Shown one piece after another: positions 2,635 to 64,000 of a stretch of DNA of 64,000 nucleotides; position 1 is the stretch's first letter, and every line of letters begins with the position of its first letter. The notes below the pieces were generated by a model. The model was given only the letters and a program-made list of their open reading frames with translations, was not told the DNA's origin and did not search any database. Source of the stretch: Atriophallophorus winterbourni (Eukaryota; Platyhelminthes; Trematoda; Plagiorchiida; Microphallidae); contig JACCGJ010018177.1 in the NCBI GenBank assembly GCA_013407085.1, forward strand, positions 38,150 through 102,149. Direction: 5' to 3'. Position numbers and translations under genes: made by a program.

Positions 2635-3313
2635 TTATTCATCGGAAACGTGATTCTGTGAAGTAGACATGATAACGAACCTGCTTGAAAAGCTCAAGGA
2701 CACAAGGGAACACGATGATCCAGTTTGTGCAATGGCTGGTTGACTTGAACCCGGCGTATCGAGTTCCGCAGGATCCTGTTGAACGTCCAACCCAAACTCA
2801 CCGGCTAGTTTGATATTTGAATCACTCTGACAGGCGAATTCCTCTTCTGGGAAGATTAAGGAACCGAGGCTTATTGTTCCGTCGTTGAAGCTTCCGTGCT
2901 CAGATGCAGTATCGTCTGTTGATTTCGGGGTATATTTTTCAAAAGACAACTCATCACATTGCACACCAAAATCTTGCAAACCGTTTGCTTTGTGGTCACG
3001 CGTTCCTATATTTATTATATCACCGATTTTTGTTGTATGATTTAAACGAGATGGCACCGATCTGGTGAAACATGGTCTAGAATGACCTCTTTTTAATTTC
3101 AGTGCAAAATGGGGCGATTTATTTTTCCGGGACTTCTTTCCTCTTCCAGATGAGGATAGTTTCTTCAAAAGAAATCGGTTCACAGCGCTATTTGGGGAGT
3201 TTGACACATTTAGGATTCTGGCGAGACAATTGGTTTCTGATTGTGTTCGTGAAACTTGGTGGCTCATGCTATGCTTCGTAGGTAATAATTGTATACGCTT
3301 TTCTTGGATCGCT
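2635..3313 (-). CDS. kinesin terminal exon (Ser/Lys-rich tail)
   Basis: The exon begins after CTTTTGAACAG and encodes [14 protein letters not shown] onward for about 225 residues to the TAA after QNHVSDE. It contains a basic patch ([23 protein letters not shown]) and an acidic, Ser-rich half. I see no FHA, PX, PH or START signature. I attach it to the kinesin by strand, position and splice phase, not by homology. Confidence 0.7.
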
Positions 3314-18300: not shown

Positions 18301-21300
18301 TATTTTCCTGCAAACATTTTATGCAACCAATTATGAAGTACACCTCAATTAAAAAACATTGGGATTTCTCGATTCACTAGCAGACTGACGAAATAAACTG
18401 CCTTGCTGAGTAAACACGAGATTTACGACTTGAGGAAATAAGCACGATCTTTGAGTAATAAATGCTTGTTTACTGGAAGCATTGCTATCAGTTTGTAACT
18501 GAGAAACATATACGTGTTTGAAATGAAGTATAGCAAACACATCTGCGCAATGATAACTAGAACAATATAACCGCAGAAAATTACACGAAACGACAGATAT
18601 TTCGCTCTAACCTGCACAAAAAGTTTGAATAAAATACTCGGTGTAACGGATGAAAGTTATTTTTATCATTTCTGGTGAATTTTGGAAAACAGTGAGACAG
18701 CAGAACTCATATTTTCCATATTTCCTGGATGAAGAAGTCCGTGGATACCCTATTCTAACTTGAGGTTAATAATAGTTACAGCAAGAATATATTTTGTTGT
18801 AATGTCACTTTGATGTAAATATTAGTGACCAGAGAGTGAACAATACTCAACATTGAAACACAGAGTGCATGTAAATTATCAGAGAATGCAATACGGAGTT
18901 TCTTAGAACGAGTTGCTAAAGGCTGTGGAATAGGTATTTCCCGAAGTGCTGTGCTGTAAAATAATTCCTGATGATTTTTTACTAAACCATAAAATTAAAA
19001 TGAAGGAAATTCCTTGAGAGATTTCTCAACTGAGCAGCAAAATCGAACAAAAGGCAAACAGCTAGAAGAATTATCCTCGTTTAACTATTCCTTGTTGAAT
19101 TGCTTTGAAAACGTATGTGCCTTAAACTCTATGAATTTCCGCAGAACCATTGCCGTCTACATTAATTTGTTTTATCAATTGTTGTTGGAATCTGATATCG
19201 CAGGCTGTATGAAAGCCTGGGATGGTTCTTACAAAGAACGGTTGTGTTCAAATGAGAATCACAAAGTGATTCCTGTTAATTAGCTCAAGGTTTATGAACA
19301 TACAATGTACTATTTTGCTTTGACCTATACGCCACAACGCGGTTCACTCTGTTATATTGTCTTTAAGTGCAAATATTTGTTTCATTTATAATTATATTAT
19401 ACTACTAAGTACGATTAGATATCCTATAACTGAGAGCAATGTTTGTAGAAGAATCAGTGCGCCTTTGTTGATAAACTAAAAGAATGATAATCTACGCAAT
19501 CAGAGAAGAATTTCTTTGATTAATAAAATCTAAACTTACTTGATGACAATAAATCGTACAGATCACGTGACTCCTGCTACTGCGGAAATGAACATTATTT
19601 TCTGCGGTCTTTCTGAAAAGCGAGAAAAGTCGATGCGAAACGTTTGTATGATCTGATGCTGACACGAATCGTTGAAGGTCATTTAGAACATATATTATAA
19701 TTAATTTCACCTTGTGGCAATCAGATGAAGTTTCAGGTCAGTAGTTTATAAAAAATCAGTTTGACTTATTTTATTCATTGTTACGGTGTCTGCCACCGAG
19801 ACGAGCTTTCTGTGATGATTATCCAGATAAGATGCATTTCTCTTAATTACACAAAGTTGCGGTATGTTAAAGCGAAGCTTGAGATTGAAAACTGTCAAAA
19901 ATACTCAAACCATTCATCTGACAACAAATTTCGAAATTTAATCAATCGAAAAATGTTAATGTAAACAAATAATTCAAGAGCAATACCAGAAACTCAGATT
20001 AATCGGTCCCAATGATCAATTTTAAATTGGGTAATTGTTGATGGCTTGTACATTTTCGCAATCACGTGATTTCTGAGCACCTACAATAGGCCCTTTGGCT
20101 TCTCCCTAGGTTTATAAATTATTTGCTTGTATGCGGTTAAATGAGATTTATCGGCACATATTTTGTTTAACGTTACAGGTATATCATGCCACAAACAGCT
20201 CGACACACTAAATAGCATATCATACAGGACAGTAATTTCGGCTATCACAATTCACGCAAACTTGCCGAGACTACCGCTCAACATTATCATGGTGTATATT
20301 ATATTATTTTTTCAATATTATAGACGCTTTCAAAATTTTGTTATAATAGACAGACAGTCAGTCAACAAATAGAAGCGGAACCTGTATGCGGCATAGATAA
20401 TATCATTCATCAGAAACATCATGCCAAATTATAACCGTGAGAAAATGTTACACATCAATAACGTGCGGAAGATTACTGATGATTCGTAGCTCCGCATTTC
20501 AATTGATAAATGTTACGTTACGTCAAGAAAACTGTGTTTCTAGATCAGATAACCTATTGAATTGACAGCAAAAAAATTGTGATAAAATGCGTTGGCTATT
20601 TCACACAAAACTGTATTTAAGCAGAGTCTGATTGATGTATAAAATCGGTAAGTGGTTGAACGTAATTAAACATGAATGCTCCTTCCGGTTTCGTATTTAT
20701 TAGAGATGAATAAATCGTTGATTTTCAATTGTGGTATGATTTGAAATATTTCGTTTCGAATTATATCTTGAAATATTGAATAGTAATCATAGAGTAATAA
20801 TGAGTTCAATGTAAATCATTTTAATATGCGTTTCAAAATCTGAGTTTAACGACACCACTATGTATTTGGAATTACAATCAGGCATTTTGTCTGTTTATCT
20901 TTGTATTATAAAAACCTTGATACAAAATGCGCAGGCGCGATATTCAAAAGTATAGTCAAGAGTACACTCTTTTGTTTTTCGGGAAGTTTGAAAATGTTTT
21001 ACTGCGTCGATCCATTAGATGAATTCCGATAAACTTAACAGAAGCTTGAAGTTACCCATAATTTTATCGTTTTTTTCCTGGAATTATTTCACTTTGATTC
21101 CATACATTTGAGCTAATTTGAAAGCACTCAGCCGGGTCAGCGTGAGTAAGAAATGCTGGCATCAAGCTTTTACCATCATAAATTATATTTTTGAAACGAG
21201 TGAGGAAATCTCGATATTTGATTGTAAGATTTCTGCAAACAAGCACACAAGGCGTTTACTTGGTGATTGCAGGCATCTAGAAAATAGTGAAAATCAATTA

Positions 21301-39300: not shown

Positions 39301-42300
39301 CATTCATTGGGTTCAGTGAAAGATAATGGGAACAACATGGACCACATTGAAAGGGTTCATCGCGGCTTAAAGAAAATAGAATGAGCAGTTAAGAAATGTT
39401 TTAAGCAGAGTCCAGTCCTTGATTGTTATATTTAGCTGGACTCGTTTCGATTTATCATTTCCGTAATTTATTTCTGAATAAATTATTTTCGAATAGTTTT
39501 GCATGATGAAACTGATAAAGCTAAGTATTATTCTAAAGCACACAGTCGATTAGATATACATCATGAAGTCTTAATCTCTATGAATCTCACAGAATTATGT
39601 CTTTACTCTGATAATAGGTGTGCCATTCTGATACGTTTCACTTCACCCGAAAAAGTTCTAACCAGAGTTTCAACCTGGAGATAAAAGTTTCCATGTCGCT
39701 TGCCCTAATATTCCGTTCAATTGGTTAGGATCAGCTGAAATTAATTCTTTGTCATAGGTGTCGAAAAGGAGACCTGTTATCGTGAAAATCAATATCACAC
39801 CACGGTCGGAAAAGAGAGAAATCGATCTGAAATTAGCACTAACGAATCTAGTACCCACTCATTGCGGATTGTCTAGCCCCCCATTGCAAGAATATTCGGG
39901 GAGTTTGGAAGATTGATAAGCCTGTTGGTCACCTCGCTATGATGGCGATGTTATTTATTCCAAATTTGGATGCATGCGCCACTGCCACGAGTCCTATAGA
40001 TAAACCCAACATTTCGATTGGGAGACCACTTTTCATAATTGAATAAATCACGCAAAATTAATGAGCAGGTAAACAAGGTTATACTTGTATACTAAGTGTT
40101 ATATAGGGTTCGTACAACGAACCACGATGTTCAGACACAGAATCACAAAGTGATTCTTGATCAAGCACTCGAGGCGCTTATGGATGACCAAAGTAATGTG
40201 TTGCTCACATCCCCATCCCTTACACTGTTTCAAGGCTCACTGAACCTGATCTTACTGTCTCCACCTGACGAAGGCAAAGAGCCACAAACCGGTAGTGGTG
40301 TGTAAGGGATGGGGATGTGAGCAACACATTACTTTAATGAGCAGGTATTTGTAAAATTGGTTATTAACCAATGGTTTATTTGTGCATCTACAATAGGCAA
40401 GCAATATCATCTTGTCGTGACTGTGTTTACATAATTAGTGTTGTTGATTTTACCGACGAAATAGGTTTAACTTTCTCTGCAGCATTCACGTTGTTACAGG
40501 GGCGGTGAACTTCTTACAAATCGGTGAATATGTAAAAACATCATTATTCATTTGCTCTCATATTATACAAGGTCGATTTCCTTATGTTTGGGCTTAACGA
40601 GAAAAGAAGTAAAGGTGTTCAAATCTGAATAAATTGAGTTATTGAGAGAATGTTACATTAAATTGATTGTTTCACGAGAGCAAATTGACTCAGGTGGATA
40701 AAACAGCATAGGCAAACTATCGCTGTAAACTTAGATTTAACTAAACTGGCGCCATTATTTCAGCACAAAATGGTTGAAAATACTAGAACGCGTGTCCACA
40801 GAACTAGATGGGAACTCGCCTTTCTCGTGTCACAAAAAATCCATAGTGCAATTAAATCTGTGTGAATGTGGGACAGTATTTTCAGAAGCAAAAAGTTTCT
40901 GAAAAGTTTTTGTAACATTAGCATGCTGAATGTTTCACCGAGCGATACGTTGAGGCTAATTTGCGAGATTCAGACTTAACGTACCAGAATAAAATTTGTC
41001 AACGTTCGGTTAACGTAGAGAACGAAAGACATAAAAAAATTTGCACAGTGCAAAAACATTTACTGTTAAAACGCAAAATTATGATTAGTAGTTTTAAAAT
41101 AACAAGGAATTCCGGTTAGGTATGCAAAAAATAAGCGAACGAATGATTCGTAGTAAAATTTAGAGATACGGTATTTATATGTAAGTGTAAGTTTTAAATT
41201 TTTTCGTTATTTAATTTGGAAATTATGGTCTTTATATGATATAAATGTGAGAAAGAAATAAAAATATCACGCTTTGTAGACTATGCATGATGTATCGTTC
41301 GGGCTACAAATATGTGAGGTTAACCGAGTCAGAGGAACCTTAAAATATCGCGTCAACATTACAGCAAGTTTACGCTCTACATGCATCATTGAGACAGAGA
41401 AATCTATTCTAACAGGCATTTACAATTTCTCCTCAAATTGTAGAGATTCGTACCAGATGTGATAGGAAAGAATGCATACAAAGGGTCACTGTGTTTCAGG
41501 GTCTGAGATAGACATCTCTAGGCCAATAGTTATGAATAAAGGACGACATGTTGATATGTGACTGCTAGCGTTAACTGCTGCAGCGAACTCATAGGCATAT
41601 CAATGAACGTGATATGCGCTTTTGAAATGATCCAAGACTGGTTGATTCGCAGAGGGCACGCCGTCCCGAATACCAAACAAACGATGGGTATTTTGAGTGT
41701 TGAAAAGCTCCAACCGATAATAGATAGTATTTTATGTTCAAATATGAAATTGATGGTATATTTTGTAATATTTTACTAAGAAAACGTTTTCCAGAGATAT
41801 TAATAAAGCAATACTCTTCCAGTTACGACAATTCGCTGAACCAGTATTACATTATATAATCAGATAGCTCGCACGATGAGTTTTGTAGTAGTAGTAGTAC
41901 AGATAAGCTCACTTTTGTGGTATATACGTTTTAGTTAAAATGTGCGTTTCATCCCAAAAATATTCAAATACGCGCGTTCAAGCCGACGTGCTAAAGAGGA
42001 TTATCTGAGATAGAGTAGTAAATTTGCAAATACAATCTAACGGATGGTAATTTAAAATCTGTGTGAAAATAAACGTTTTCTGTGATTCATCAATTCCTCT
42101 ATTGACATATACCACCCCGTACTACTGTGCCCAAGTGAAAACGGTGATATCAGCCTTTGTGCCACTTGGTTTAAAACAGATCAAACAATAGTGTGCATAA
42201 GCCTTTCTTCCAAAGCAATTACGTTGTTTCAAAACAACGTGACGCATCTGAACGAACCAAAACAGTTTCTACGCTTGTGCACTGACGACTAATTCTAGTT

Positions 42301-45300
42301 TATTAGTTTCATTTTCTTTCGAAATTACTAAGCATCTACAACGAATTGTTCCAGTAATTGTAAATATGATGTGAATTCAGTTCACACCAACCCTTTGTTT
42401 AAAACAAATCTTATTTTAGGCGAAATATATTACGCCGAACAAATATAACTGATGTATTATCATAATCATATTATCATAACATTTCACAGATTTTATCAAC
42501 CGAGATTTTCAAAATTTTGAGACAGCTGGTTGAACTTGGACACAGCGTAGCTTTACGACATATGTTTGATGTCAGCCACGGTAAAAAATTAAATCACCTT
42601 TGAACAGGTTGGTCGTACCAGCCTTATCCAACAGTGGCATACAAGCGCTCCTTGTTTACCATTCTTCCACTGTTTCAAGCGCATGCGGATCCTGGTCTTA
42701 CTGTCCCTACCTGATGAGTGCAAACAGCACGAAACCGGTCGTGGGGTGTGAATGACGGAAAAGCATGCAAATGAATGTTTTGTTTCATTGTTATGGGTTT
42801 AACCCCATTTAACATGTGTTTGGACACATGCTTTGAACAGGTTGGTCGTACCAGCCTTATCCAACAGTGGCATACAAGCGCTCCTTGTTTACCATTCTTC
42901 CCCTGTTTCAAGCGCATGCGGATCCTGATCTTACTGTCCCTACCTGATGAGTGCAAACAGCACGAAACCGGTCGTGGGGTGTGAATGACGGAAAAGCATG
43001 CAAATGAATATTTAAATCACCTACAGTTGTTGAAATAATACACCTAATAGGTGGTGAGCATATTGTAACAAATTAGTGAAAAGGTTATAACAATGTTAGC
43101 GACAACTCGAAGTCAACACAAACAGTCAATATACCGTTTCACCGGATTCATTGACGTGTTGGACATAATGATGACAGAAAATTAATCAGTATCAATATAT
43201 CATTTGCAATATAATGACAGGTTTGATTGAATTCTGTTTTTACTTTGAGCTTGCCCTTGAACGTTTGAAGAAATTAAAATTAGGTTTTGAAAATTGATGG
43301 ACATATTGTTGTTTCTTTTGTTGCATTTTGACATCCGAATGATGATTGTATAATTTCAAAAATGAGGGCTTTCGGAAACAGGAGTTTCTCTACTCTGATG
43401 TATTTCATTCGTAAACCTGTCAAACAATCAACAGCAAAGAACAATAATCTAAACTGATGAAAATTCATTAGCTCTTCCGAATATGTTGCATTCGGGAACG
43501 ATGCAACCATAAAATTTATTGAATATGGGAATCTCTGGTATTACCGGTACATCTCTATATCGGTGAATGCCTATAAAATAGAGCATTTAAGCACTTAAAA
43601 ACGCTTCATTCATTAAAGCAATGCTTCTTATAATCTTAAAAGCATAATGAAATGTTTTGCCAGAGAAAGAGCCCATAGAAAAATGGGTTATTCTGATGCA
43701 CAACAAGCATTGAAAAATTCACTAACTACATTCAGTTTAAGGAATTCAAATTGATAGCAATATCATCGCGATGAATAACATAAAGTTTATAAATGCTGTC
43801 AAACAATTGCTTGCCGAAGTTTCTAGATGTTGTTGTATTTGAGGATTGATGTAAGTGTGTTTACTGATTAAAAATCGAACAATTATAGAACACCTTCACG
43901 TGTGTTAAAACATGTTGATTCCTTTCCCTCACACATGAAGTTTCCAGCCAATTTCAAGTAATGAGCTTTAGAAGTCTTCAAATTTTACAAAAATTTCAAG
44001 TTACTATATTTTTGCCCAACACGTTTCGGTTTATTCTCGTTGGCTTGTTCAACCATGCTTCTAACAAGAGACGAGAAATTGCAATGAATGTGACTAATCT
44101 AATTAAGGTATTCATATGTGCATGCCATGACTCAAACCTATACAATCGGATTTCATTATAAATTTTATTTGTGGTACTGGATGTGCTCATTAGGGAACGT
44201 TGTCGAATTCCCATTGCACAGCGATTGCTCACGCGAAAACTGCTTCTTTTGTTTATTTACTGCTATTCATCAAGATACAAACAAGTTGGTGGAACAATCA
44301 CACTCTTGGTTCAGACACTGTTTCGTTCCATCAGTATTCTAATTGTCAGTCTTTACAAGCACATCGTTTCACCTGTTTCGGTTCAATTATCTCTGGCAAT
44401 CGTGATCGATATTTGCACCCTAGCGCGTCTCTCGTTTTGTCCTGTTCGAACTCGGTGGTGATTGTAAACTGGCCGTGAAATCAAAATGATCATACACCTG
44501 CAGCGTATCAAATGCTTTATCTTATTGCAACACAATTTAAACCGCCACAGTAAGAAAGGAACGATCGCCGAAAGTCTTCTCTTGATGCAATGTCCGTCGT
44601 TGGTTGTGTCTTGTCTATAGACTGAAGTATAGTCATACACCAAAATATCTATTTTACAAAGCGTTGAAACAAGAAGTCAGCCTTTAAATAAGCACACCTT
44701 CAGTAAAATCACATTTGTAACTTAGCTATGAAATCTCTCGAAATCGGCAGCAGGACATCGGAAGAACAGCTTTTGACTGCTTACCTCACAGATATTGTGT
44801 AAAGTGTCATTTACATGCTGAGACAGAAAGAGTTCCGGCTCTGTATTTAATCAAGTAAGTATAACACATCGCTTCGAAATTTGTGGGAGATGTTGCTACT
44901 CTTTAATTGATATGAGTGGTCAAACAAAAGGTTTTGACTATCGAATCTTCCCTTACTTGCATAATTGACAGGTTCATGTAAAATCAAATGTAAAGATCGT
45001 AATATGTTGCTAAAATTTGCATCTGTCAAGCTCACGATTTCGGGAAGCGCTGGTAAAATGCAGCTGCAAACACTAATGTAATTTGGTTGTGAGGAAGAAT
45101 CTATAATCAATATATTTTTTTGTTTCTCACGTTCATCAAATTTGCCCAAGCCTAAAACTTCCGGATTATTTTTCGTCCTATTGAGGTGAAAAATCATTTT
45201 AAGCAGCAAAAGTTGGGCTTTTACACTTATTTTAACCCGTACATATACTTCAATATCGGTTTCAAACTGTTTAGTTTCAGCAATCGAATAATGTCTGCTT

Positions 45301-47348
45301 ATTTTCCGGGAGTGAAAAGATTTTAACAGTTACATGTTCTATGATGATGTTGAATACACACAACGAACTAAAATGATGAAATACAAAAATATAAAATACA
45401 TTTGCATGCATCTCCTTCACACAAAACACACCACGACCGGTTTCGTGCTGTTTGCACTCATCAGGTAGGCACAGTTGGATCAGGATCCGCATGCGCTCGA
45501 AACAGTGGAAGAATGGTAGACAAGTTGCGCTTGTATGCCACTGTTGGGTAAGGTTGGTACGACCAACCTGTTCAATCACATGAGCCCCCACTCATGTACA
45601 TACATAATTCAGAACTCAGAACGTTTCATGGTAAAAAAGTTATAAGCTTAACAATAACCCTATGATGACGAGGTATATCGAGTAAAAATACAAAATCGTA
45701 CAAACTAAATAGGGACAGTCACATATAGCATGGTTCTTCATATGCTCAGCGAATTAAGAAGCAAGAACCGCAACAGATTTCGAGCGTGTGATTTCTTCAA
45801 GCAAAATCTTCCAAGTAAAACAACTTATCGAGAAAAACGTATGACGAATACTCAATCGAAAATGCGGAATGCTCAAATCCTTTGAATATTTTCGTGTTCG
45901 AGTAAGGCCACTGGGCTTTATCAGGTATTTATGGGGATGTTTTTAAGTATGCAAGAATTTAAATGTCAACAGGAGGTCATTGCACATCATTCGTTGGGTA
46001 AAATCGTGTAGATTAAGTTTTAACATTCTCTCTTTGAAAGGCAAGATTGTATAACAGTAGACCAATTTTGTCGCACGATTATAAATCCTGTTAAGTGGTT
46101 CGATATCCTTCCTCAGCCACGGTGCTCAATCTTGGATGGAATATTTCATAACAGGTCGTAAATACATTTTAATTAACCGGGGTAAAGTTTCGGGCGTAAT
46201 AATCTTGAATATTTTTTAGAAGACTCAAGATACGGCTGGCGTTTTTGTAAACTATCCGTCAATGATTTGCAGACCTAAGTTTAATCGACATCCAGCTACC
46301 TAGCACTTTTTCTAAGGTAATTCAGATGAGATCTTGCATGCCAAGCTGACAGATTTTCCAAGCCGCAGCATTCTACATTTAGCAGGTTAAATATCAACTC
46401 ATTTGTCTGAGACTAAAGAAATAAGGTGTAAGTTCCCGGTGTAATGCTATACAGTCATTAACAGACTTGACACATTTCCATATTTTAATATTATCGGCAA
46501 ACACTATTAAGTAACATCATACCATATCGTTCATATGCACCAAGAGGTCCAAGCACCAAGCTTTGAGGAACTCGACTTGTGATATATATTATTCTAGAGA
46601 GGGTGCTGCCATCGCAAACTTAGGTGTGTCTATCAGTAAGATAGACCCTTATCCAATTCATAAAGTGTTTCTCCGTCAATTAATAAATACGATCGCAAAT
46701 TACTAGCGTAATATGTTGCTGAAATCGTTAGGTTTGTTGCATCAAGTCTGTATATAGCTAGAGAGTTTTAGATTCGAACTCTAAAAATTTCTGGGTGTGA
46801 ATAATTATTAACGGGATTTTTTCTAGAATATTTGTCGATGAAATGCGGGAAATGTGTGCTGCATAGAAGGAATGTTCACTTTTGTAACCTTGCAAGTGGT
46901 AAGGCAATCGAAACGCTAAAATATCAGAGTTTACATTATTGTTATACTCAATTGCCATTGTTTGTGATTGTAGAAAATTTCTAAATAACCCAAGTATTCT
47001 GTTCTCATCGTCAAGCCTCACCTCAGATCCAAAGATGGTATGCGTCTTGCCCGTTCCAGTTTGTCCGTAGGCGAATATGCTACAGTTGTAGCCATCGATA
47101 ATCGCGTTCATTGCCGTTTTCCCAATTTTATCGAAAATCTGATGTGAGCTTGTTAACCATTGCCTACCTGCGTCTGTACAACATTATCATTCTGCCCTTC
47201 CTCAGTGTGAAAAACATGATCGAATGTGAATACCCGACGCCGTCTTCTGTTGTCCGCGACGAGTGGGAATTGATTCTCCAGTAAGTTGTTCAGAATTAGT
47301 TGATTTCCGCGAATCGATATACACGTATCTCCAGTAGAGTCTGGATTC
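2635..47348 (-). CDS. kinesin motor protein, kinesin-3-like; 14 exons, 5' end missing
   Basis: This encodes a microtubule motor ATPase with an N-terminal motor. Exons on the minus strand are 47168-47348, 47022-47138, 39106-39138, 36416-36462, 30209-30318, 24141-24210, 19540-19612, 17897-17964, 14336-14433, 9659-9856, 9470-9567, 9337-9429, 4275-4363 and 2635-3313. They total 1954 bp: one carry-over base plus 651 codons including the stop. Motor motifs run in canonical order: [10 protein letters not shown] (P-loop), [29 protein letters not shown] (switch I), FIDLAGSERA (switch II), [26 protein letters not shown], then a neck helix starting [14 protein letters not shown]. The KLTWLL signature and the neck resemble kinesin-3 (KIF16B/STARD9 type), but I see no FHA, PX or START domain. 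The tail is short and Ser/Lys-rich. The start codon and VRxRP strand were not found. The weakest exons are 36416-36462 and 4275-4363. Confidence 0.9.
3314..4274. other. kinesin intron, no recognised content
   Basis: AT-rich intron of 961 bp between the tentative post-neck exon and the terminal exon. I recognise no element in it. Confidence 0.5.
4275..4363 (-). CDS. kinesin exon (tentative), post-neck
   Basis: An 89-bp candidate with good sites (acceptor TTATCGATTCAG, donor GATAG|GTATGT). Read in phase 0 it gives 29 codons starting [15 protein letters not shown], and its phase 2 exit matches the terminal exon exactly. Another frame of the same stretch reads like a helix ([16 protein letters not shown]) but ends in TAG at the donor, so the assignment is not secure. 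Confidence 0.5.
4364..6099. other. kinesin intron, unassigned part
   Basis: AT-rich sequence with no open frame or repeat I recognise. The rest of this intron (to 9336) contains three members of the hammerhead repeat family, described separately. Confidence 0.5.
6100..6350 (+). repeat. hammerhead-family repeat, single decayed copy
   Basis: It begins with a small hairpin (GTTCGAACAACGAAC) and an AATCAC/GTGATT hairpin, then shares the blocks TTTACCATTTATCCACTG, GGCTCACTGAACCTAATCTT and CACCTGATGACGGC with the copies at 7.4 and 40.1 kb. The ribozyme core CTGATGA (6281-6287), a 3-bp stem II around AAACA, and GAAAC are visible. The base before the cleavage-site C is changed, so the core is probably inactive. 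Confidence 0.75.
7380..7690 (+). repeat. hammerhead-family repeat, single decayed copy
   Basis: It shares GTTCGTACAACGAACCAC, AATCACAAAGTGATTC, GGCTCACTGAATCTAATCTT and a core-like CTGATGAGAGC...GAAACCGGT with the copies at 6.1 and 40.1 kb. Stem II is broken. The AATCAC/GTGATT motif occurs twice (near 7420 and 7510). Confidence 0.7.
8082..8390 (-). mobile_element. decayed tandem hammerhead element (retrozyme-like), 222-bp period
   Basis: On the minus strand two hammerhead-like modules lie 222 bp apart. The first is at about 8344-8386 (CTAATGA, stem II GTGC/GCAC, GAGA) and the second at about 8122-8164 (ATGATGA, broken stem II). Core substitutions in both should abolish cleavage. The stretch between them aligns with the 42.6 kb unit: GGGTTTAAACCC hairpin, ACATGTG/CACATGT hairpin, then AACAGGTTA. 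Nearly identical decamers flank it (ATATCAACAT at 8072-8081, ATATCGACAT at 8391-8400), a likely target-site duplication with one mismatch. Confidence 0.75.
8401..9336. other. kinesin intron, unassigned part
   Basis: No identified element. The base composition is slightly less AT-rich than its surroundings. An 86-codon plus-strand frame at 8530-8790 has no motif I know and no good splice context, so I do not call it a gene. Confidence 0.4.
9337..9429 (-). CDS. kinesin exon (neck helix)
   Basis: Its 31 codons read [20 protein letters not shown] then [11 protein letters not shown]. They form the I-R-x-L-x-x-E-I-x-x-L-K neck helix typical of kinesin-3 motors. The acceptor is AACAATGTAG and the donor CCG|GTAAGT, phase 0 at both ends. 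Confidence 0.93.
9470..9567 (-). CDS. kinesin exon (alpha-6, end of motor)
   Basis: It encodes T(ACC)[19 protein letters not shown] then [13 protein letters not shown]. This is the last helix of the motor plus the start of the neck linker. The acceptor is GCATTTCAG and the donor TTG|GTATGT. The introns on either side are only 91 bp (9568-9658) and 40 bp (9430-9469). Confidence 0.94.
9659..9856 (-). CDS. kinesin exon (loop 12, [10 protein letters not shown])
   Basis: Its 65 codons include [14 protein letters not shown] and [14 protein letters not shown], the loop-12/alpha-5 microtubule-contact region. A Ser-rich insert, with [17 protein letters not shown] at its core, precedes it, where kinesin-3 proteins also have a variable loop. 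The acceptor is ATCATATAG and the donor GCAA|GTACGT. Confidence 0.95.
9857..13494. other. kinesin intron, mostly unassigned
   Basis: AT-rich intron with no coding exon that I can support. Two short pieces resemble the hammerhead repeat family: 11160-11200 (TGTGATGGAAATGTGTGCAA) and 11530-11577 (TGATTGAACAGTTCGGTC then GAAACAGTGGC). They are fragments without a ribozyme core. Confidence 0.5.
13495..13800 (-). mobile_element. RTE-like LINE, 3' fragment
   Basis: On the minus strand this encodes the C-terminal end of an RTE-type polyprotein: [18 protein letters not shown] and a cysteine/histidine tail, [18 protein letters not shown] short tail ending near GTTGACCTCC follows. The same tail ends the 14.6 kb copy, so the two 3' ends can be compared directly. 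It lies in a kinesin intron, on the gene's strand. Confidence 0.85.
14336..14433 (-). CDS. kinesin exon (SERA to alpha-4)
   Basis: It completes DLAGS and encodes [19 protein letters not shown] then [13 protein letters not shown]. This is the helix-4 microtubule-binding region, where most kinesins have INKSL and this one has INLSL. The acceptor is ATTCATCACAG and the donor CTGG|GTATGT. It is phase 2 in and phase 1 out. Confidence 0.92.
14578..16645 (-). mobile_element. RTE-like LINE, 5'-truncated, interrupted by a MITE
   Basis: On the minus strand the RT and C-terminal domains are readable in broken frames: [52 protein letters not shown] (the RT F-A-D-D-A site altered to FADNA), [14 protein letters not shown] and [19 protein letters not shown], then the HWRHCVK region and 3' tail. 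The endonuclease end is missing. A 220-bp element with TTAA duplications splits it at 16066-16285. Frameshifts and stops show it is dead. Confidence 0.9.
16066..16285. mobile_element. 220-bp piggyBac-like MITE nested in RTE copy
   Basis: Both sides carry TTAA (16062-16065 and 16286-16289). The ends are inverted repeats beginning CCCTTAAC. The uninterrupted RTE copy at 28.35 kb reads straight through the insertion point (ATCACGCTATTTAGGAATAC), so the insertion is clean. A second inverted pair, CACTTCCG (about 16101) and CGGAAGTG (about 16205), lies inside. TTAA duplication plus CCC...GGG ends is the piggyBac signature. It has no coding capacity and is visibly richer in GC than its surroundings. 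Confidence 0.85.
16650..16830 (+). repeat. hammerhead-family repeat, decayed copy
   Basis: It contains AATCACTTTGTGATTC, a diverged TCTTACTGCTTCCACTCGACG and AACGGTTGTGG, matching the repeat family in order but with the ribozyme core destroyed. It abuts the 5' break of the minus-strand RTE copy. Confidence 0.55.
17290..17600 (+). mobile_element. CR1/Jockey-like LINE, 3' fragment of ORF2
   Basis: The plus-strand frame reads [18 protein letters not shown] and [20 protein letters not shown], the pattern found at the C-terminus of CR1/Jockey-type ORF2 proteins. A second copy of the same sequence ([16 protein letters not shown]) is on the minus strand near 45.85 kb, which shows that it is a dispersed element. 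Confidence 0.65.
17897..17964 (-). CDS. kinesin exon (switch II, DLAG)
   Basis: Its 22 codons run from [13 protein letters not shown] to KLSFIDLAG. The last Ser codon of DLAGS is split AG|C across the next intron. The acceptor is TTACCTCAG and the donor GGAAG|GTAAGT. Confidence 0.93.
17965..19539. other. kinesin intron, unassigned
   Basis: AT-rich, no recognised element. A short piece at 19248-19285 (GAATCACAAAGTGATTCCTG, just beyond the DLAG exon's upstream intron) matches the AATCAC/GTGATT hairpin of the hammerhead repeat family. Confidence 0.45.
19540..19612 (-). CDS. kinesin exon (switch I, SSRSH)
   Basis: It encodes [20 protein letters not shown] followed by YCHQ. This holds the canonical switch I motif N-x-x-x-SSRSH that senses the ATP gamma-phosphate. 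The acceptor is TCGCTTTTCAG and the donor CAA|GTAAGT. It is phase 2 in, completing AG|A as Arg, and phase 0 out. Confidence 0.93.
19613..24140. other. kinesin intron, unassigned
   Basis: AT-rich 4.5-kb intron between the switch I exon and the beta-5/alpha-3 exon. I recognise no element. A minus-strand stretch near 21.18-21.24 kb has splice-like ends but the wrong phase for the gene. Confidence 0.5.
24141..24210 (-). CDS. kinesin exon (beta-5/alpha-3)
   Basis: It encodes [19 protein letters not shown] followed by IAN, matching the kinesin pattern leading to G..NR. The acceptor CTTTCAG joins G|GA to complete GPYVEG, and the donor AACAG|GTAAAT leaves AG to be completed as Arg by the next exon. 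It is phase 1 in and phase 2 out. Confidence 0.88.
24211..25984. other. kinesin intron, unassigned part
   Basis: AT-rich sequence upstream of the plus-strand RTE element. I see no gene or repeat I can name. Confidence 0.5.
25985..29935 (+). mobile_element. RTE-like LINE, near full length, inactive
   Basis: The most complete copy in the window, lying in a kinesin intron antisense to the gene. A GC-richer 5' leader (about 26010-26740) is followed by endonuclease remnants ([10 protein letters not shown] near 26750, [14 protein letters not shown] near 27500). RT begins near 28330 ([25 protein letters not shown]) with an active-site region [19 protein letters not shown] near 28950. The C-terminal part has [33 protein letters not shown] and a 3' tail near 29880-29935. 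Many frameshifts and stops interrupt it. RTE elements move by target-primed reverse transcription with an APE-type endonuclease. Confidence 0.9.
30209..30318 (-). CDS. kinesin exon (LEIYNE...REHP)
   Basis: It encodes 36 complete codons from [13 protein letters not shown] through [17 protein letters not shown], matching the kinesin beta-4/loop-8 region. It is phase 2 in (acceptor TCTTATAG) and phase 1 out (donor GAAG|GTGGGC). The exon begins about 270 bp beyond the 3' end of the plus-strand RTE element. Confidence 0.92.
30319..31439. other. kinesin intron, unassigned part
   Basis: AT-rich. There is a short (TA)n run near 30350. No element recognised. Confidence 0.5.
31440..32545 (+). mobile_element. 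RTE-like LINE, 3' fragment
   Basis: The plus-strand sequence parallels the 28.7-29.9 kb part of the longer copy: [15 protein letters not shown] near 31580, [15 protein letters not shown] near 31900, [17 protein letters not shown] near 32205 and the tail GGTCGACCTCGACCGAAG near 32510. It is 5'-truncated, badly frameshifted, and antisense to the kinesin gene. Confidence 0.85.
32546..34424. other. kinesin intron, unassigned part
   Basis: AT-rich sequence with no recognised element. Confidence 0.5.
34425..34480 (-). repeat. hammerhead-family repeat, short 3' fragment
   Basis: On the minus strand it reads AAACAGCCTGAAACCGGCAG followed by a TGTGTAAGGGAAGGGGATG arm. This corresponds to stem II/GAAAC of the ribozyme plus one arm of the long inverted repeat seen at 40.3 kb. 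Confidence 0.65.
34481..36415. other. kinesin intron, unassigned part
   Basis: No recognised element. A minus-strand stretch near 34762-34850 is an alternative candidate for the missing exon before LEIYNE (correct phases, weak splice sites). Confidence 0.4.
36416..36462 (-). CDS. kinesin exon (tentative), helix before LEIYNE
   Basis: A 47-bp exon candidate, phase 0 in and phase 2 out, reads [15 protein letters not shown] plus two bases. The acceptor CTATTTTCAG and donor CCGT|GTAAGT are both strong, and the phases are exactly those needed to join GLVPRICA to the LEIYNE exon. The residues themselves are not diagnostic. A rival with the same phases and weaker sites lies near 34762-34850. Confidence 0.5.
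36463..39105. other. kinesin intron, unassigned
   Basis: It contains a minus-strand open frame at 36750-37031 (contains [15 protein letters not shown]) that looks somewhat protein-like but has no recognised domain, and a short frame at 37948-38130. Neither fits the kinesin phase pattern convincingly. Confidence 0.4.
39106..39138 (-). CDS. kinesin 33-bp microexon (GLVPRIC)
   Basis: Eleven codons, [11 protein letters not shown], match the G-[IL]-[IV]-P-R-[IVL]-C element that follows the P-loop helix in kinesins. The acceptor has a strong pyrimidine tract (TTTTTTTACTACAG) and the donor is GCA|GTAAGT. It is phase 0 at both ends, which fits the preceding exon. Confidence 0.85.
39139..40084. other. 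kinesin intron, unassigned part
   Basis: AT-rich, no recognised element. Confidence 0.5.
40085..40335 (+). repeat. hammerhead-family repeat with a perfect 34-bp inverted repeat
   Basis: It starts with GTTCGTACAACGAACCACG and AATCACAAAGTGATTC, as in the 6.1 and 7.4 kb copies. Positions 40192-40225 and 40300-40333 are exact reverse complements over 34 bp, with 74 bp between them. The spacer holds a ruined hammerhead core (CTGACGA instead of CTGATGA, CAAA instead of GAAA). A transcript would fold into a long hairpin. Confidence 0.85.
40336..42588. other. kinesin intron, unassigned part
   Basis: AT-rich. A small GTAGTAGTAGTAGTAC run lies near 41888. No gene or repeat recognised; a 73-codon plus-strand frame at 41558-41779 has no motif. 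Confidence 0.45.
42589..42599. repeat. target-site duplication, left
   Basis: TTAAATCACCT, repeated exactly at 43012-43022 on the far side of the tandem hammerhead element. Confidence 0.85.
42705..42746 (+). ncRNA. type I hammerhead ribozyme, unit 1
   Basis: Stem I pairs CCCTAC (42705-42710) with GTGGGG (42741-42746), six pairs including one G-U. The core CTGATGA is at 42711-42717. Stem II is GTGC/GCAC (42718-42721 with 42727-42730) closed by AAACA, and GAAA is at 42731-42734. The stem III region is only CCGG before the UC cleavage site, so cutting falls between 42740 and 42741. All invariant core positions are present. ACCGGT is self-complementary, so two copies could pair through stem III. 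Confidence 0.9.
42812..42831 (+). ncRNA. conserved linker hairpin of the hammerhead element
   Basis: CATGTG (42813-42818) pairs with CACATG (42825-42830) around a six-base loop. The same hairpin occurs at 8256-8275 (ACATGTG/CACATGT, minus strand) and at 45578-45597, where it reads ACATGAG/CTCATGT. One base pair has changed on both sides there, preserving pairing. Confidence 0.7.
42938..42979 (+). ncRNA. type I hammerhead ribozyme, unit 2
   Basis: Identical to unit 1 through the whole motif. Core CTGATGA is at 42944-42950, stem II follows, GAAA is at 42964-42967, and the cleavage site is between 42973 and 42974. Confidence 0.9.
43012..43022. repeat. target-site duplication, right
   Basis: TTAAATCACCT, the partner of 42589-42599. 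Eleven identical bases at both edges of the insert mark a staggered-cut integration. Confidence 0.85.
43023..45399. other. kinesin intron, unassigned part
   Basis: No supported element. Minus-strand pieces at 44373-44468, 44785-44840 and 44957-45177 have splice-like borders and compatible phases but were rejected as kinesin exons (see rejected list). Confidence 0.45.
45400..45605 (-). repeat. hammerhead-family repeat, single unit with intact core
   Basis: On the minus strand it runs from ACATGAGTGGGGGCTCATGT through TGAACAGGTTGGTCGTACC and GCGCATGCGGATCC to the hammerhead and GCATGCAAATG, in the same order as the 42.6 kb unit. It is a single copy with no obvious flanking duplication. It lies in the large intron between the P-loop exon and the 33-bp exon, on the gene's strand, so it would be part of the pre-mRNA. 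Confidence 0.85.
45431..45469 (-). ncRNA. type I hammerhead ribozyme, single copy
   Basis: On the minus strand the core CTGATGA (45458-45464), stem II GTGC/GCAC with loop AAACA, GAAA and ACCGGTC are intact. Cleavage would fall between 45435 and 45434. Stem I is shorter than at 42.7 kb (four pairs, CTAC with GTGG) before a mismatch, so activity may be weaker. Confidence 0.75.
45680..46740 (-). mobile_element. CR1/Jockey-like LINE fragment (RT to C-terminus)
   Basis: On the minus strand, in shifting frames, I read [29 protein letters not shown] (a form of SGVPQGSVLGPLLF), [10 protein letters not shown] (the FADDIKLW site with D changed to N), [13 protein letters not shown] and [16 protein letters not shown]. 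These are the RT palm and the C-terminal part of a CR1/Jockey-clade ORF2, in the right order. It is heavily decayed and lies in the kinesin intron. Confidence 0.8.
47022..47138 (-). CDS. kinesin exon B (P-loop)
   Basis: It encodes 39 residues from [12 protein letters not shown] to THTIFGSE and contains the nucleotide-binding P-loop [12 protein letters not shown]. The acceptor is CACATCAG and the donor GAG|GTGAGG, phase 0 at both ends. The reading frame stays open for about 270 bp past the donor, but the exon at 39106-39138 supplies the expected GLVPR motif, so I end the exon here. Confidence 0.9.
47139..47167 (-). other. 29-bp micro-intron in kinesin gene
   Basis: It starts GTAGGC and ends CATCAG. 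Its length is not a multiple of three, and reading through it leads to a stop shortly after VQTQVGNG. Removing it joins VVQTQ to [14 protein letters not shown] in frame, which restores the motor alignment. Introns of this size near the 5' end of a gene are a known schistosome trait. Confidence 0.85.
47168..47348 (-). CDS. kinesin exon A (motor beta-1 to loop before P-loop)
   Basis: The exon encodes 60 residues beginning [14 protein letters not shown] and ending NDNVVQTQ, with the kinesin strand VFTFDHVF before the P-loop exon. The acceptor is TATCACAG and the donor CAG|GTAGGC. It enters in phase 2 and leaves in phase 0. The phase 2 entry means an upstream exon supplies two bases of the first codon, so this is not the first coding exon. 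Confidence 0.88.
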
Positions 47349-51581: not shown

Positions 51582-52387
51582 ATGGACAGTATTCCACAGG
51601 CAGCACCTATCCCAGCAGATATTTGTCATTTATCACTTCCTGAGTTTGGCGTAACAAACCCTAGATTATGGTTCGCTCAAGTAGAAGCTATTTTCGAAAC
51701 TCGACGCATTACTAGCCAAAAAACAATGTACTGTTAGGCCATAGGAAGTTTACCACACGCAGTCGCATCCTAAGTTGCTGATATCATATACAACAGACCT
51801 GCAGATAAACGTATGATGTACTGAAATCAGCTCTGATATCGCGTATAGCAGCATCTGATGAGAAAAACTTACGCAAATTACTCTCGGGTATCGAACTAGG
51901 TGACAATACATCGTCGCAACTCCTTCGCCGAATGATCGAGTTACATGGTACAACAGCAGTTGGCGAACCTATTTTAAAAGAATTGTGGCTGCAAAGACTA
52001 CCCAACGATGTTCGAAAAGCACTTTCGGTGGTCAAAGAAGATTACAAGTTAGATAAGCTTGCTGCCATCGCCGATCGAGTGTATGAAAATCATAAGCCAA
52101 CCATTGCAGTAGTACAATCGCCTCATAACTCAACTCCTTCAACTTTAGAATCAGAGATCTCCGAGTTGAAATCGCGACTCGACGAACTTTGCATGCACAT
52201 ACGTACTTCACGAAATGATCGATCTCGGTCATCACAGAGACACAGTCCGAATGGACGATATTCACGAAGTCGGAGTAGTCTTTGCTATTACCACCGCAGA
52301 TTCGGTGAACGCGCCTACAGATGCACCAGACCCTGCAGTTTTGTTTCCAAATCTAACGAGCAGGGAAACGATTATGCCAGGCAGTAG
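51582..52387 (+). pseudogene. gag of LTR element, broken
   Basis: It opens MDSIPQAAPIPADICHLSLP and EFGVTNPRLWFAQVEAIFE, the N-terminus typical of CsRn1-group gag. Stops interrupt it near 51736 and 51770, and a one-base shift near 51810 moves the frame. The rest (51932-52387) continues through IELHGTTAVGEPILKELWLQ and coiled SEISELKSRLDEL to an unusual CHCC zinc knuckle, CYYHRRFGERAYRCTRPC. It then stops at 52387. Gag would form the particle and bind element RNA; this copy cannot make it whole. Confidence 0.88.
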
Positions 52388-52398
52388 GAACGGCTGCA

Positions 52399-54453
52399 TT
52401 GCCTGGCAACAAAGTTAGTCGTCTCCTCTATATCTCTGACAACACAATGAAATTGCGTTTTCTGGTAGACGCCGGTGCGGAACTCAGCGTCATCCCACCT
52501 ACCGAAACCGAACGCAAGTGTTCGTCGGGATTGACCCTTAACGCGGCCAACGGTACTCGGATAGCCACTAATGGTCATCGGTCCCTCGCGGTAGACCTGG
52601 GCTTACGAAGATCGTTCCACTTGGTGTTCACCATTGGAGAAGTGAAAACTCCGATTTTGGGTGCAGATTTGTTGTCCAATTTCAACATCGCGGTGGACAT
52701 AAGACAACGAAGGCTTATTGATAACACCACGAAGTTAAATTCAATAGGCAAATACCATTACACATCCATACAGTCTATTCAAGTTTTGACTCCACTCGTC
52801 ACCCAGCCTTGTAAGGAACTCATAGTCCAGTTTCCAGGGATCTTCAAACCAAAGTCATTCACAAATGTGGTCAAACACCAGGTCGAACACCACATTGTCA
52901 CATGTGGCCCTCCAGTTTTTGCCAAACCACGTAGACTAGCTCCAAACAAACTGGCGATCGCCAAACAAGAGTTTGAACATATGTTGGAGCTAGGAATCAT
53001 CCGCCCGTCGACCTCACCATTGGCTTCTCCACTACATATGGTTGAAAAAAGTACCGCAGATACGTGGCGCCCATGCGGAGATTATAGGGCACTTAATCGC
53101 ATTACGGTACCAGACCGTTACCCCATTCCACACATCCACGATTTTACGGCGCCCCTAAACGGAAAAACCGTGTTCTTGAAGCTTGACCTAGTACGCGCCT
53201 ATCACCAAATCCTAGTTGCGAAGGAAGATATCCCTAAAACGGCTGTCACGACACCATTTGGCTTATATGAATTCGTACGAATGCCATTTGGTCTCCGAAA
53301 TGCCGCACAAACTTTCCAGCGTTTTATGGATCAAGTATTTAAGGGATTGCCCTTCGTATACGTTTATATTGATGACGTGCTAATTGCTAGCAACACATCG
53401 ACAGAACATGTTGAGCATCTTCGAGAGGTTTTTCAGCGCCTATCTCAGTATGGTATTGTCATGAATCCCGATAAATGCATCTTTCATGTGGAAACACTAG
53501 ACTTTATCGGTCACCGCATCGATTCCACCGGAATTAAACCCGTTGAACAGAAAGTCTCTGCCATCCGCGATTATCCATGCCCGAGTTCAATCCGCCAGCT
53601 GCGTCGATTTCTGGGCCTAGTCAACTACTACAGACGATTGATTCCCCATTGCGCGAAGTTAGCTCAACCGCTTACAGATTTACTTCGCTGCAAAGAAAGA
53701 AATTTTTCAATGAATCCACAAGCGATCGAAGCTTTTGACGCGCTTAAATCCGCTTTTGAGCAGGCGACAACTATGACTTATATATCAGCTGAGACAGATG
53801 CTCGTTTATCGCTTGTTACCGATGCATCAAACGAAGCGGTAGGCGCAGTACTCCAACAAGAGGTGGATTACAGGATTAGACCCATAGCCTTCTTCTCACG
53901 CCGACTGCAGCCAGCGCAGACAAGATATAGTACCTTTGGTCGCGAGCTCCTCGCTGTGTATTATTCCATTCGCCATTTCCGGCATTTACTCGAAGGTCGC
54001 AGTTTCACGGTTTACACCGACCACAAACCGCTAACGTTTGCACTCGCCACAACTTCCGATCGTTATTCACCGCGAGAGATCCGTCAATTAGACTACATCT
54101 CCCAATTAACGAGCGACATTCGTTACCTATCCGGCTCGTCAAACACAGTGGCGGATACGTTTTCTCGGATCCAACTGTGTGCCATCGACCTGCCTGGAAT
54201 CGATTTGGAACAACTAGCACGTTCGCAGCAATCTGTTCCGGTACTAAGTCGCTATGAAACTTCAGAGATGGGAAAAATCCGCCGAATCCCGATATCCGAT
54301 TCTCCACATTACCTGGTTTGTGACATGACAACAGGAAAACCGCGTCCGATTGTCCCCTCAGACATGAGACGTAGAGTTTTTGACCACTTGCATGGTTTAT
54401 CACATCCTGGAGTAAGAGCGACACGAACATTAATCAGTTCTCACTACCTCTGA
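52399..54453 (+). CDS. pol, protease-RT-RNase H part (long intact frame)
   Basis: A 684-codon frame. Residues about 18-95 are an aspartic protease, with [13 protein letters not shown] where D-T/S-G is usual and a later ILGADLL. RT spans about 200-380: [40 protein letters not shown] and the catalytic YIDDVLIAS near 320. RNase H spans about 470-590: [33 protein letters not shown]. It ends in the integrase zinc-binding region ([12 protein letters not shown]) at a frameshift near 54450. The start at 52399 is simply the first ATG after the gag stop; the true gag-pol expression mechanism is not visible in this damaged copy. Confidence 0.93.
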
Positions 54454-54454
54454 C

Positions 54455-55355
54455 ATGCATAAAGACATACAACTTTGGACAAAAAGTTGCTTGCGATGTC
54501 AACAGAGCAAGGTTGAACGACACACTATCAGCTACCCTGGTACGTTCCCACCTGTTACTGAACGTTTCCAACAAGTGCATTTGGATCTCGTAGGCCCCCT
54601 AGCAGTCTCTAACGGATGTTGCTACATACTTACCTTCATTGATCGTTTTACGCGTTGGCCAATGGCAGTAGCAATCCCTGATATCAGTGCAGAAACTGTT
54701 GCTGAAGCTTTTGTTCAGAACTGGATCAGTAATTTTGGCGTGCCAAGCACGATCACTACTGACAGAGGTTCCCAATTCCAATCTACGCTTTTTAAGGAAC
54801 TGAACAACATGCTCAGTACGAATCACACTTAGACTACAGCCTACCAACCTTCTTCGAACGGCTTAGTTGAAAGATTTCAACGCCAACTGAAAGCCGCACT
54901 CATGTGTCATGGGAATACTGAACGTTGGTCCGAGACACTACCCCTAGTACTTCTTGGTATACGTAACGCAGTGAAAGAAGACCTAGGGTGTTCAGCTGCT
55001 GAAATGGTGTACAGTAGTACACTTATCCTTCCAGACGAATCCCCGACATCTTCCGACTCATCATTGTACCTTACTGTGCCACAATATGTCAACCGCCTTC
55101 GCAGCTTCATGAAAAACTTACGGGCTACTCCAACTCGACAGCATGAGCAACCCAGCTACATTTCACCTGACTTGAATACTTGCGACTTCTTTTGTGCGGG
55201 TAGATCATGTACGTCGACCGCTACAGCCGCCATACATAGGGCCGTACAAGGTAATCAACAGGTATCCAAAATACTTCGTTATTGACCGCAACACGAGACA
55301 GTCAGCGTCGATCGTTTGAAAGTAGCCTACGTCGAACCGGCACCAGAGGCGAAAT
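54455..55355 (+). pseudogene. pol, integrase part, broken
   Basis: It continues pol in the next frame: [20 protein letters not shown] (the CxxC of the H2C2 finger), then the DDE core with [16 protein letters not shown] and NGLVERFQRQLKAAL. A TAG after STNHT (near 54830) interrupts the core between the second Asp and Glu. A C-terminal GPY/F module (PPYIGPYKVINRYPK) is readable near 55225-55285 after a frameshift, and another shift follows before YVEPAPEA and the stop near 55355. Confidence 0.88.
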
Positions 55356-63009: not shown

Positions 63010-63205
63010 AAGGGTGGATCGTGATTGATCAGGTTAGTGGGGCCTGATTTTTCTCACAGTAGCTCAAAATTCTACACGTTTTCTACTATTTCTTTGTTGT
63101 TTGATTGCACTCCGATCTTGATTCTATTGTTCCTACCCGATTAGTGTAGGCGGCACTAAACCGGTTTTCGTGTGTGTAATGGAAATGTATGCAAATACGA
63201 TTGTT
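63010..63205 (+). repeat. hammerhead-family repeat, decayed copy
   Basis: CTGATTTTTCTCAC, CTTGATTCTATTGTTCCTAC, CCGATTAGTGTAGGCGGCAC and AAACCGGTTTTCGTG follow the unit order up to TGGAAATGTATGCAAATAC. The core CTGATGA has become CCGATTA, so the ribozyme is dead. Confidence 0.65.
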
Positions 63206-64000
63206 GTTTACATCTTGCTTTAGCTTCCTACAATCCATATTTTCCGGGCTTCTGCTGTAAAACGAAATACAACTTTGAAGTTTTATTCAGTAAAAACATT
63301 TTGGCTCTAATGATTACTTATCTTCGATTATTAATCCGTATATATGTTTTAGAAAATACCCACAATAGTTACTATCCAATTTTCGGTAAGGATTAGATCC
63401 GTAATGGATTAACCAGAGCTATTTTCCGATCCTTTGCCATAAATTTATGACTTTCAGTCAAAAACATCTTAGCATCATTTAGAAAAGTAAATTAGGTGGC
63501 TTTTAACCTAGCTGAAAGTTTGGAATCGAGCATTGTCTCCACAGAATTATTTCCAGTGATTCGCAAAAACGAATATAAAAGTTATCGAAATTTGATTGAC
63601 ATAAATAATCTGGAAAGTCTAACTTCAGAAGCGAATCAATCGAAGCCAGATTAGACCTATCATTTAGGAAGGCAGCTCAATTCTGCAATTTTTATTAAGA
63701 GTCAAGTCATTTAATTCTGATATTTTATATAATGTGGCACAAAGTTTCGTTGCAGTAACCGTGGTTGAATTATGCTAGCTAGAATGTTGAAAGAACCGTG
63801 AACCATAGATTGATTCTCAACAATTTAATTTTGCATGAACTTCAAATTGCAGTGCGGTATTTTATTTAACATCATTGTCATTAATCCTACTTACTATGTG
63901 AATATTGAAAAGTTTAGGCCCGGTTAATCGGTGATAAGTAGTACAATGACATGAGGCCTGAGGTTGTTTCATCATATTTACTGATCGTTGTAAAGGACTC
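63206..64000. other. unassigned sequence
   Basis: AT-rich, no recognised gene, RNA or repeat. Confidence 0.5.

Follow-up and report, generated by a model that had tools for sequence, protein, structure and literature searches.

Does a pair of hammerhead ribozymes lying between two copies of a short direct repeat in a trematode genome record the arrival of a small RNA-borne mobile element and, if so, to which kind of element does it belong and what moved it? The question arises at positions 42589-43022 of the window analysed here, a stretch of 64,000 nucleotides from Atriophallophorus winterbourni that forms the end of contig C11228 in a host assembly of 537 Mb and 15,840 contigs. The initial annotation of this stretch had proposed a retrozyme-like insertion, from a family that might be undescribed. 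We examined the anatomy of the locus, its relatives in the window and in the host genome, the ends of the inserted copies and the candidate enzymes that could have moved them, and weighed the resulting evidence against the known hammerhead-bearing repeats.

Anatomy of the probable insertion

Read directly, the window holds 1.77 tandem copies of a 233-bp unit (GC 47.1%) at 42600-43011, bounded by the 11-bp direct repeat TTAAATCACCT at 42589-42599 and 43012-43022. Both copies of this repeat rest on direct reading, a repeat search, an offset count and the analysis of ends described below, and their initial interpretation as a target duplication was borne out: at offsets of 400-459, exact recurrence of an 11-mer is rare (4 of 3.81 million position-offset pairs, the TTAAATCACCT pair being one of the 4). 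Unit 1 (42600-42832, plus strand) is complete, and unit 2 (42833-43011, plus strand) is shortened at its 3′ end to 179 of 233 bp. Aligned over 42598-42780 and 42831-43013, the two copies keep a period of 233 bp and are 98% identical, differing at 42669, 42695 and 42777 among the 183 positions compared; the near-identity noted initially therefore stands, but its count of 2 in 176 does not, one of the three differences, at the edge, having been left out. A junction segment, or linker (42781-42832, plus strand), is present between units and missing after the last one; it contains an inverted repeat, ATGGGTTTAACCCCAT, at 42793-42808 and a hairpin, CATGTGTTTGGACACATG, at 42813-42830, and is common to this dimer and to an old tandem of the same window (8257-8392). 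Tandem Repeats Finder did not list the unit pair at 42600-43011. No long reading frame was found in the 233-bp unit, the frame that opens at the ribozyme ATG of the first unit running for 13 codons, and an ARAGORN scan of the window returned no tRNA gene.

Exons of a kinesin-type gene are spread over 37 kb of the window, with motor exons recognised by Pfam at 46758-47183 and 9447-9893, both on the minus strand, and a further minus-strand segment at 19495-19737 that we take to be the kinesin-like SSRSH exon, from a motif scan with kinesin landmarks. Judged by sequence, the dimer probably sits in an intron of this gene, antisense to it. Because the gene lies on the minus strand, its own transcript would not carry an active ribozyme, and a plus-strand transcript would be needed. 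A Ty3/gypsy-type retrotransposon occupies 51809-55285 of the window; its domains for reverse transcriptase, RNase H and integrase are distributed over several frames.

A hammerhead that probably acts as a pair of units

Both units match the Rfam type I hammerhead model RF00163 end to end, 233 bp apart and at 32.9 bits each (42705-42746 and 42938-42979, plus strand), with E-values of 4e-6 for 1,020 bases searched and 2.5e-4 for the whole window, in agreement with the two intact motifs of the initial annotation. A default Rfam scan lists nothing, because this score falls just under the gathering score of 34. A strict core-plus-stems pattern occurred four times on the plus strand of the window and not at all on the minus strand, and was absent from one strand of 60 first-order Markov samples, each 64 kb long; this absence and the window-wide E-value rule out a chance motif. 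The annotated stems were confirmed, with 6 pairs in stem I, one of them G-U, and 4 pairs in stem II. In the first hammerhead, stem I lies at 42705-42710/42741-42746, stem II at 42718-42721/42727-42730 and the palindrome ACCGGT at 42734-42739, with the expected cut after C42740; the second would be cut after C42973.

At the positions of stem III the RNA reads ACCGGU, a bare palindrome, and a canonical stem III is absent from the unit. This near-absence, named initially as a trait of a family that may be undescribed, is already on record for the hammerheads of amphibians and of Penelope-type elements (PMC7229834; PMC7761336). Since ACCGGU leaves no room for a loop, a single unit alone cannot form stem III, and in its predicted fold of lowest energy the ACCGGU region is taken up by pairing with part of the core. 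Two units can pair their palindromes into a 6-pair helix, for which an intermolecular duplex energy of -8.3 kcal/mol was computed, and with this palindrome as its whole stem III the ribozyme is probably active as a cis-dimer of two units. The predicted cuts would release the RNA 42741-42973 (plus strand), of 233 nt as the initial annotation had it, but such a release depends on a plus-strand transcript while the surrounding gene reads on the minus strand. This predicted RNA folds only modestly better than its shuffles, at -68.9 kcal/mol with a z of -1.87, a stability equalled or exceeded by 5 of 200 shuffles.

Comparison of 16 diverse copies is in keeping with the proposed stems, which are paired in 71.6% of cells; shifting them by 1-3 columns brings the figure down to 32-49%. 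In stem II, the second pair alternates between U-A and G-C. Shuffle controls on these copies were mixed: the percentage paired was reached by 4 of 500 and the covariation score by 32 of 500, and 268 of 500 had an equal count of pairs with double changes.

Relatives in the window and satellite arrays in the host genome

Four further loci of the window belong to the same kind of unit, hereafter A-type. A single copy at 45393-45598 (minus strand), 88% alike in its unit part by comparison with the unit, has a 5′ hairpin and no clear duplication; the older tandem at 8084-8392 (minus strand) is shortened at its 5′ side and includes the junction segment; an old copy lies at 63024-63206 (plus strand); and an old 3′ half at 11106-11218 (plus strand) is accompanied by a 5′ piece at 11510-11579. 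Copies of a second subfamily, B, were found at 6192, 7552, 16733, 34472 and 40217. Subfamily B consists of hammerhead-bearing repeats with hairpins of their own, seen at 6050-6450, 7420-7800 and 40080-40470 of the window and at 2380-3000 and 7230-7600 of the genomic stretch L043, where two B copies stand head-to-head about the palindrome AGAATCACAAAGTGATTCT. In the B-type copy at 40191-40334 of the window, the 5′ side repeats the copy's 3′ tail in inverted orientation, so that the ribozyme forms the loop of a large inverted repeat. Subfamily B is commoner than the A-type across the sampled stretches; eight other stretches (80 kb) held two A-type relatives only, both degraded, and B copies more frequently. 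Diverged pieces at L045:3809-4069 and 7623-7899 match the 5′ half of the unit only, and may represent another subfamily, one that lacks the ribozyme.

A search of the host genome with the 434-bp stretch gave 49 matches from the 40 scored of 747 first-look candidates. We examined 34 stretches, one per matching contig and leaving out the window's own contig; they are mostly head-to-tail arrays of the unit, the longest within these stretches counting 23 units, with a few fragments. Many arrays reach the edge of the stretch or contig, and copy number varies. The unit is therefore abundant in arrays, and these many copies, with the further relatives in the window, rule out a unique local duplication. 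The proposed retrozyme-like insertion is thus upheld, as a multimer of hammerhead units between duplications whose family has many genome copies, and to it is added that the 233-bp unit also builds satellite arrays. In collections of viral and prokaryotic contigs, no exact match to the ribozyme core was found.

The 34 stretches yielded 310 full monomers with a mean divergence of 2.4% from their majority sequence, a sample weighted towards close relatives, since the search puts the most similar sequences first. From this majority, unit 1 of the window differs at 3 bases and unit 2 at 1; the two differ from each other by 1.66%, against a mean of 4.0% between adjacent array monomers, and 13.4% of 253 adjacent array pairs are as close. 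Core, cut site and stems are intact in 214 of the 310 monomers (again a sample biased to close relatives). Majority bases are kept at 98.1% in the ribozyme versus 97.2% in the rest of the unit, and all 13 core positions carry the majority base in 77.1% of monomers, a figure that averages 69.4% (sd 8.8) when the pattern is moved to other places. As conservation of the hammerhead barely exceeds that of the remaining unit, there is little sign of selection on the ribozyme in most array units.

Insertion footprints

Eleven elements have both ends within the sequence examined, and in three of them (the window dimer, L019 and L011) a duplication stands well above chance; the other eight have none beyond chance. 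Beside the 11 bp of the window dimer, these footprints measure 10-11 bp. L019 is a 2.85-mer of 664 bp with AAGTTTAACCT at 1496-1506 and 2171-2181, and L011 is a pair of arrays placed head-to-head (4.2 and 3.0 units) within one duplication, TGAATATCCA, at 1474-1483 and 3145-3154. Among 4000 random pairs, a score of at least 10 occurred at a frequency of 0.0005; when the flanks of the 11 elements were cross-paired, 1 of 110 pairs scored at least 10 and 5 of 110 at least 8, these cross-paired pieces containing up to 12 bases of the element ends. A frame of MULE/FAR1-type transposase (L011:69-989) adjoins the inverted hammerhead arrays of L011.

The three elements also share one end, at unit positions 179 (window), 188 (L019) and about 181 (L011). 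The ribozyme cut falls after position 141, and the shared end lies 38, 47 and about 40 nt past it, respectively. Across arrays and fragments of the 34 stretches, 7 of 19 true 3′ ends fall at unit positions 175-194, a clustering with a binomial p of 0.0007 for this chosen window and of 0.04 as a scan over all windows; the 19 leave out one L015 end, 10 bases from the contig end, and include L015 position 111, which adjoins a run of G and may be an assembly fault. In the window itself, all five A-type loci whose 3′ part can be read lose similarity at 181-190, and where another unit follows, the similarity continues through the junction segment; these ends were taken from whole-unit comparison, and readings with the profile A5 were left out because A5 itself was cut at that end. 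The 5′ ends are looser and often at the hairpin, just after it at 42600, inside it in L019 and at its start at 45598. All three distinct direct inverted array junctions (L011, L034, and L015, identical to L017) are head-to-head. A second group of true 3′ ends, 4 of 19, falls at unit positions 47-59, becoming 5 if the L012 end at 59 replaces the piece beyond, and possibly marks a second breakpoint.

Probable origin and rival explanations

We consider it likely that the locus is a young insertion of a metazoan non-LTR retrozyme, which arose when a circular or multimeric RNA was copied in a target-primed reaction. This reading builds on the anatomy, the multimers between duplications, the shared end and the abundance established here. 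Because a multimer stands within one pair of duplications, more than one unit was copied per event, the template being either a circle or an uncut multimer, and because the preferred end lies inside the unit, away from the ribozyme cut, the inserted ends differ from those of the cut RNA. The route of movement proposed for animal retrozymes is a circle that yields cDNA of more than one unit (PMC7229834, PMC7761336).

From these footprints and the predicted structure we infer the transcription, the cleavage, the circle and the enzyme. Tandem units would be transcribed, and the two hammerheads of one transcript would pair through ACCGGU, completing stem III, and cut. The cuts would free the 233-nt RNA, whose ends a host ligase may circularise, as is known for relatives. 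The reverse transcriptase of another element would then begin copying at a near-fixed site, 38-47 nt past the cut, and proceed more than once around the circle, or along an uncut multimer, before halting near the 5′ hairpin or elsewhere; insertion of the product at a staggered break would leave the duplication of 10-11 bp.

The RNA and the enzyme could also be of another sort. The unit might be the pLTR of a Penelope-like element (PLE), or the locus an internally deleted PLE (pLTR, short remnant, pLTR), moved as uncut linear RNA with copying initiated internally, ribozyme cutting and circles being incidental; we judge this rather unlikely, even though much of the footprint fits it. The pLTRs of PLEs measure about 193-218 bp and have palindromes at their 5′ ends, their inverted copies are mostly head-to-head and their duplications are of 8-10 bp (PMC3846280), and in the sole PLE studied in vitro, copying begins within the RNA downstream of the hammerhead and the ribozyme is unneeded (PMC11167929). 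The 5′ hairpin, the end 38-47 nt past the cut, the duplications of 10-11 bp and the three head-to-head junctions observed here are PLE-like, though the cases are few. The genome does contain GIY-YIG fragments (of 1370 candidates 150 were scored, giving 17 matches), and some resemble PLE endonucleases, with frames judged by eye. Yet the unit has neither a reverse transcriptase nor a GIY-YIG frame, nor any long reading frame, and a PLE using it as pLTR was sought around the 17 GIY-YIG loci with no A-type unit found within about 1.5 kb at any of them, for which reason the moving enzyme is put forward conditionally. The lone weak match of the A profile, in L048 (12.6 bits), is better fitted by the B profile (27.0 bits); B-type pieces, present in L050 as well as in L048, appear to be dispersed copies of independent origin. 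A reading frame beside the array of L039 that looked like a PLE endonuclease by eye was discarded, as Pfam gave nothing up to E 10 and a PDB search nothing relevant. At four of the 17 loci (L053, L056, L057 and L063), a motif resembling the hammerhead core (CTGATGA, a 6-bp stem II, GAAACG and the palindromic ACGU) follows the GIY-YIG match at a distance of about 175-255 bp and in the orientation of the endonuclease fragment; it was not counted as a hammerhead because no stem I is visible by eye. The loose core pattern also matched L050 twice, at unrelated sequence.

Mobilisation of a short, SINE-like transcript by a LINE, with the ribozyme as a passenger, would be compatible with the duplication lengths, and reverse transcriptase or endonuclease fragments of non-LTR type lie nearby (RVT_1 in L046 and L012, Exo_endo_phos_2 in L045), but we find it improbable: the window has no tRNA gene by ARAGORN, and the copies read end without an A run. 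To our knowledge, a head-to-head multimer within one duplication, as in L011, is not a usual LINE product. Duplications of LINE type, of 15 bp, have nevertheless been reported for the hammerhead repeats of Nematostella (PMC4918200). We attach equally little credence to a plain satellite, whose arrays would grow by unequal exchange while DNA repair moves short pieces and the hammerhead persists as a fossil. The long arrays of varying copy number, the scant sign of ribozyme selection within them and the several scattered array ends devoid of duplications speak for it; against it stand the dimer, the 2.85-mer and the inverted multimer, each within one duplication of 10-11 bp, the 3′ end common to copies and, in a sample biased to close relatives, the 214 of 310 monomers that retain core, cut site and stems.

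Retaining the retrozyme reading, we advance with due reserve a broader proposal, which we would sooner expect to fail than to hold: that animal retrozymes are moved by Penelope-like machinery, that their multimers, head-to-head ones included, come from a single target-primed event starting at a fixed site about 40 nt past the cut, and that the need for two or more units in a productive source copy follows from the cis-dimeric ribozyme. As the family comprises both satellite arrays and dispersed insertions, it bears on the origin of hammerhead satellites; if the proposal is true, large hammerhead satellites are the long products, or the seeds, of that same target-primed event. PLEs are named only as a strong candidate for the autonomous mover of animal retrozymes (PMC7229834), and among the eight listed open-licence PMC papers that contain "retrozyme", none contains "head-to-head". 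Multimers in duplications of 10-11 bp, a shared 3′ end and the head-to-head multimer of L011 are footprints that make the mover testable.

Comparison with known systems

Tandem hammerheads delimiting a non-coding RNA that circularises, here by prediction, are shared with the LTR retrozymes of plants, which differ in having type III hammerheads, LTRs, 4-bp duplications and a length of 600-800 nt (PMC4918200); the type I hammerhead and the 11-bp duplication exclude that class. The SM-alpha (W36) repeat of Schistosoma, compared by description only, is likewise hammerhead-bearing, a few hundred bp long and both satellite-like and dispersed, with a unit of 335 bp (PMC8490949), and a tRNA-like part has been reported for the schistosome repeat (PMC4918200), whereas none was found in the present window. 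The minimal hammerheads and pLTRs of PLEs resemble the present family in a near-absent stem III and tandem hammerheads and, going by a few cases, in a 5′ palindrome, head-to-head copies, an insertion end shortly past the ribozyme and duplications of similar length (PMC3846280, PMC11167929, PMC7761336); in contrast to PLEs, which have a telomerase-like reverse transcriptase with a GIY-YIG endonuclease, the 233-bp unit has no frame for either, and no PLE carrying it was found, the 17 GIY-YIG loci having been viewed to about 1.5 kb.

The suggestion that the family might be undescribed does not hold as to its kind, since the non-LTR retrozymes of metazoans have been described with platyhelminths among their hosts (Cervera and de la Pena 2020, PMC7229834). 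They resemble the present family in their type I hammerhead, their non-coding tandem units of a few hundred bp (the 233 bp found here lying within their range of about 150-450 bp), their occurrence from dimers to large multimers and arrays, a GC content under 50%, target-site duplications of more than 4 bp, when present, and many copies (PMC7229834). Further marks of that kind are the lack of LTRs, of a primer-binding site and of a polypurine tract, a strongly self-paired RNA, and self-cleavage with linear and circular RNAs of unit length. The bare-palindrome stem III sets our family apart and brings it nearer to the amphibian type, which needs dimers, most invertebrate retrozymes being reported to cut as monomers (PMC7229834); a further difference is the head-to-head multimer within one duplication. 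By the sequence features tested, the element of the kinesin-type locus belongs with the metazoan non-LTR retrozymes; its stem III is of the sort seen in amphibian and Penelope-type hammerheads.
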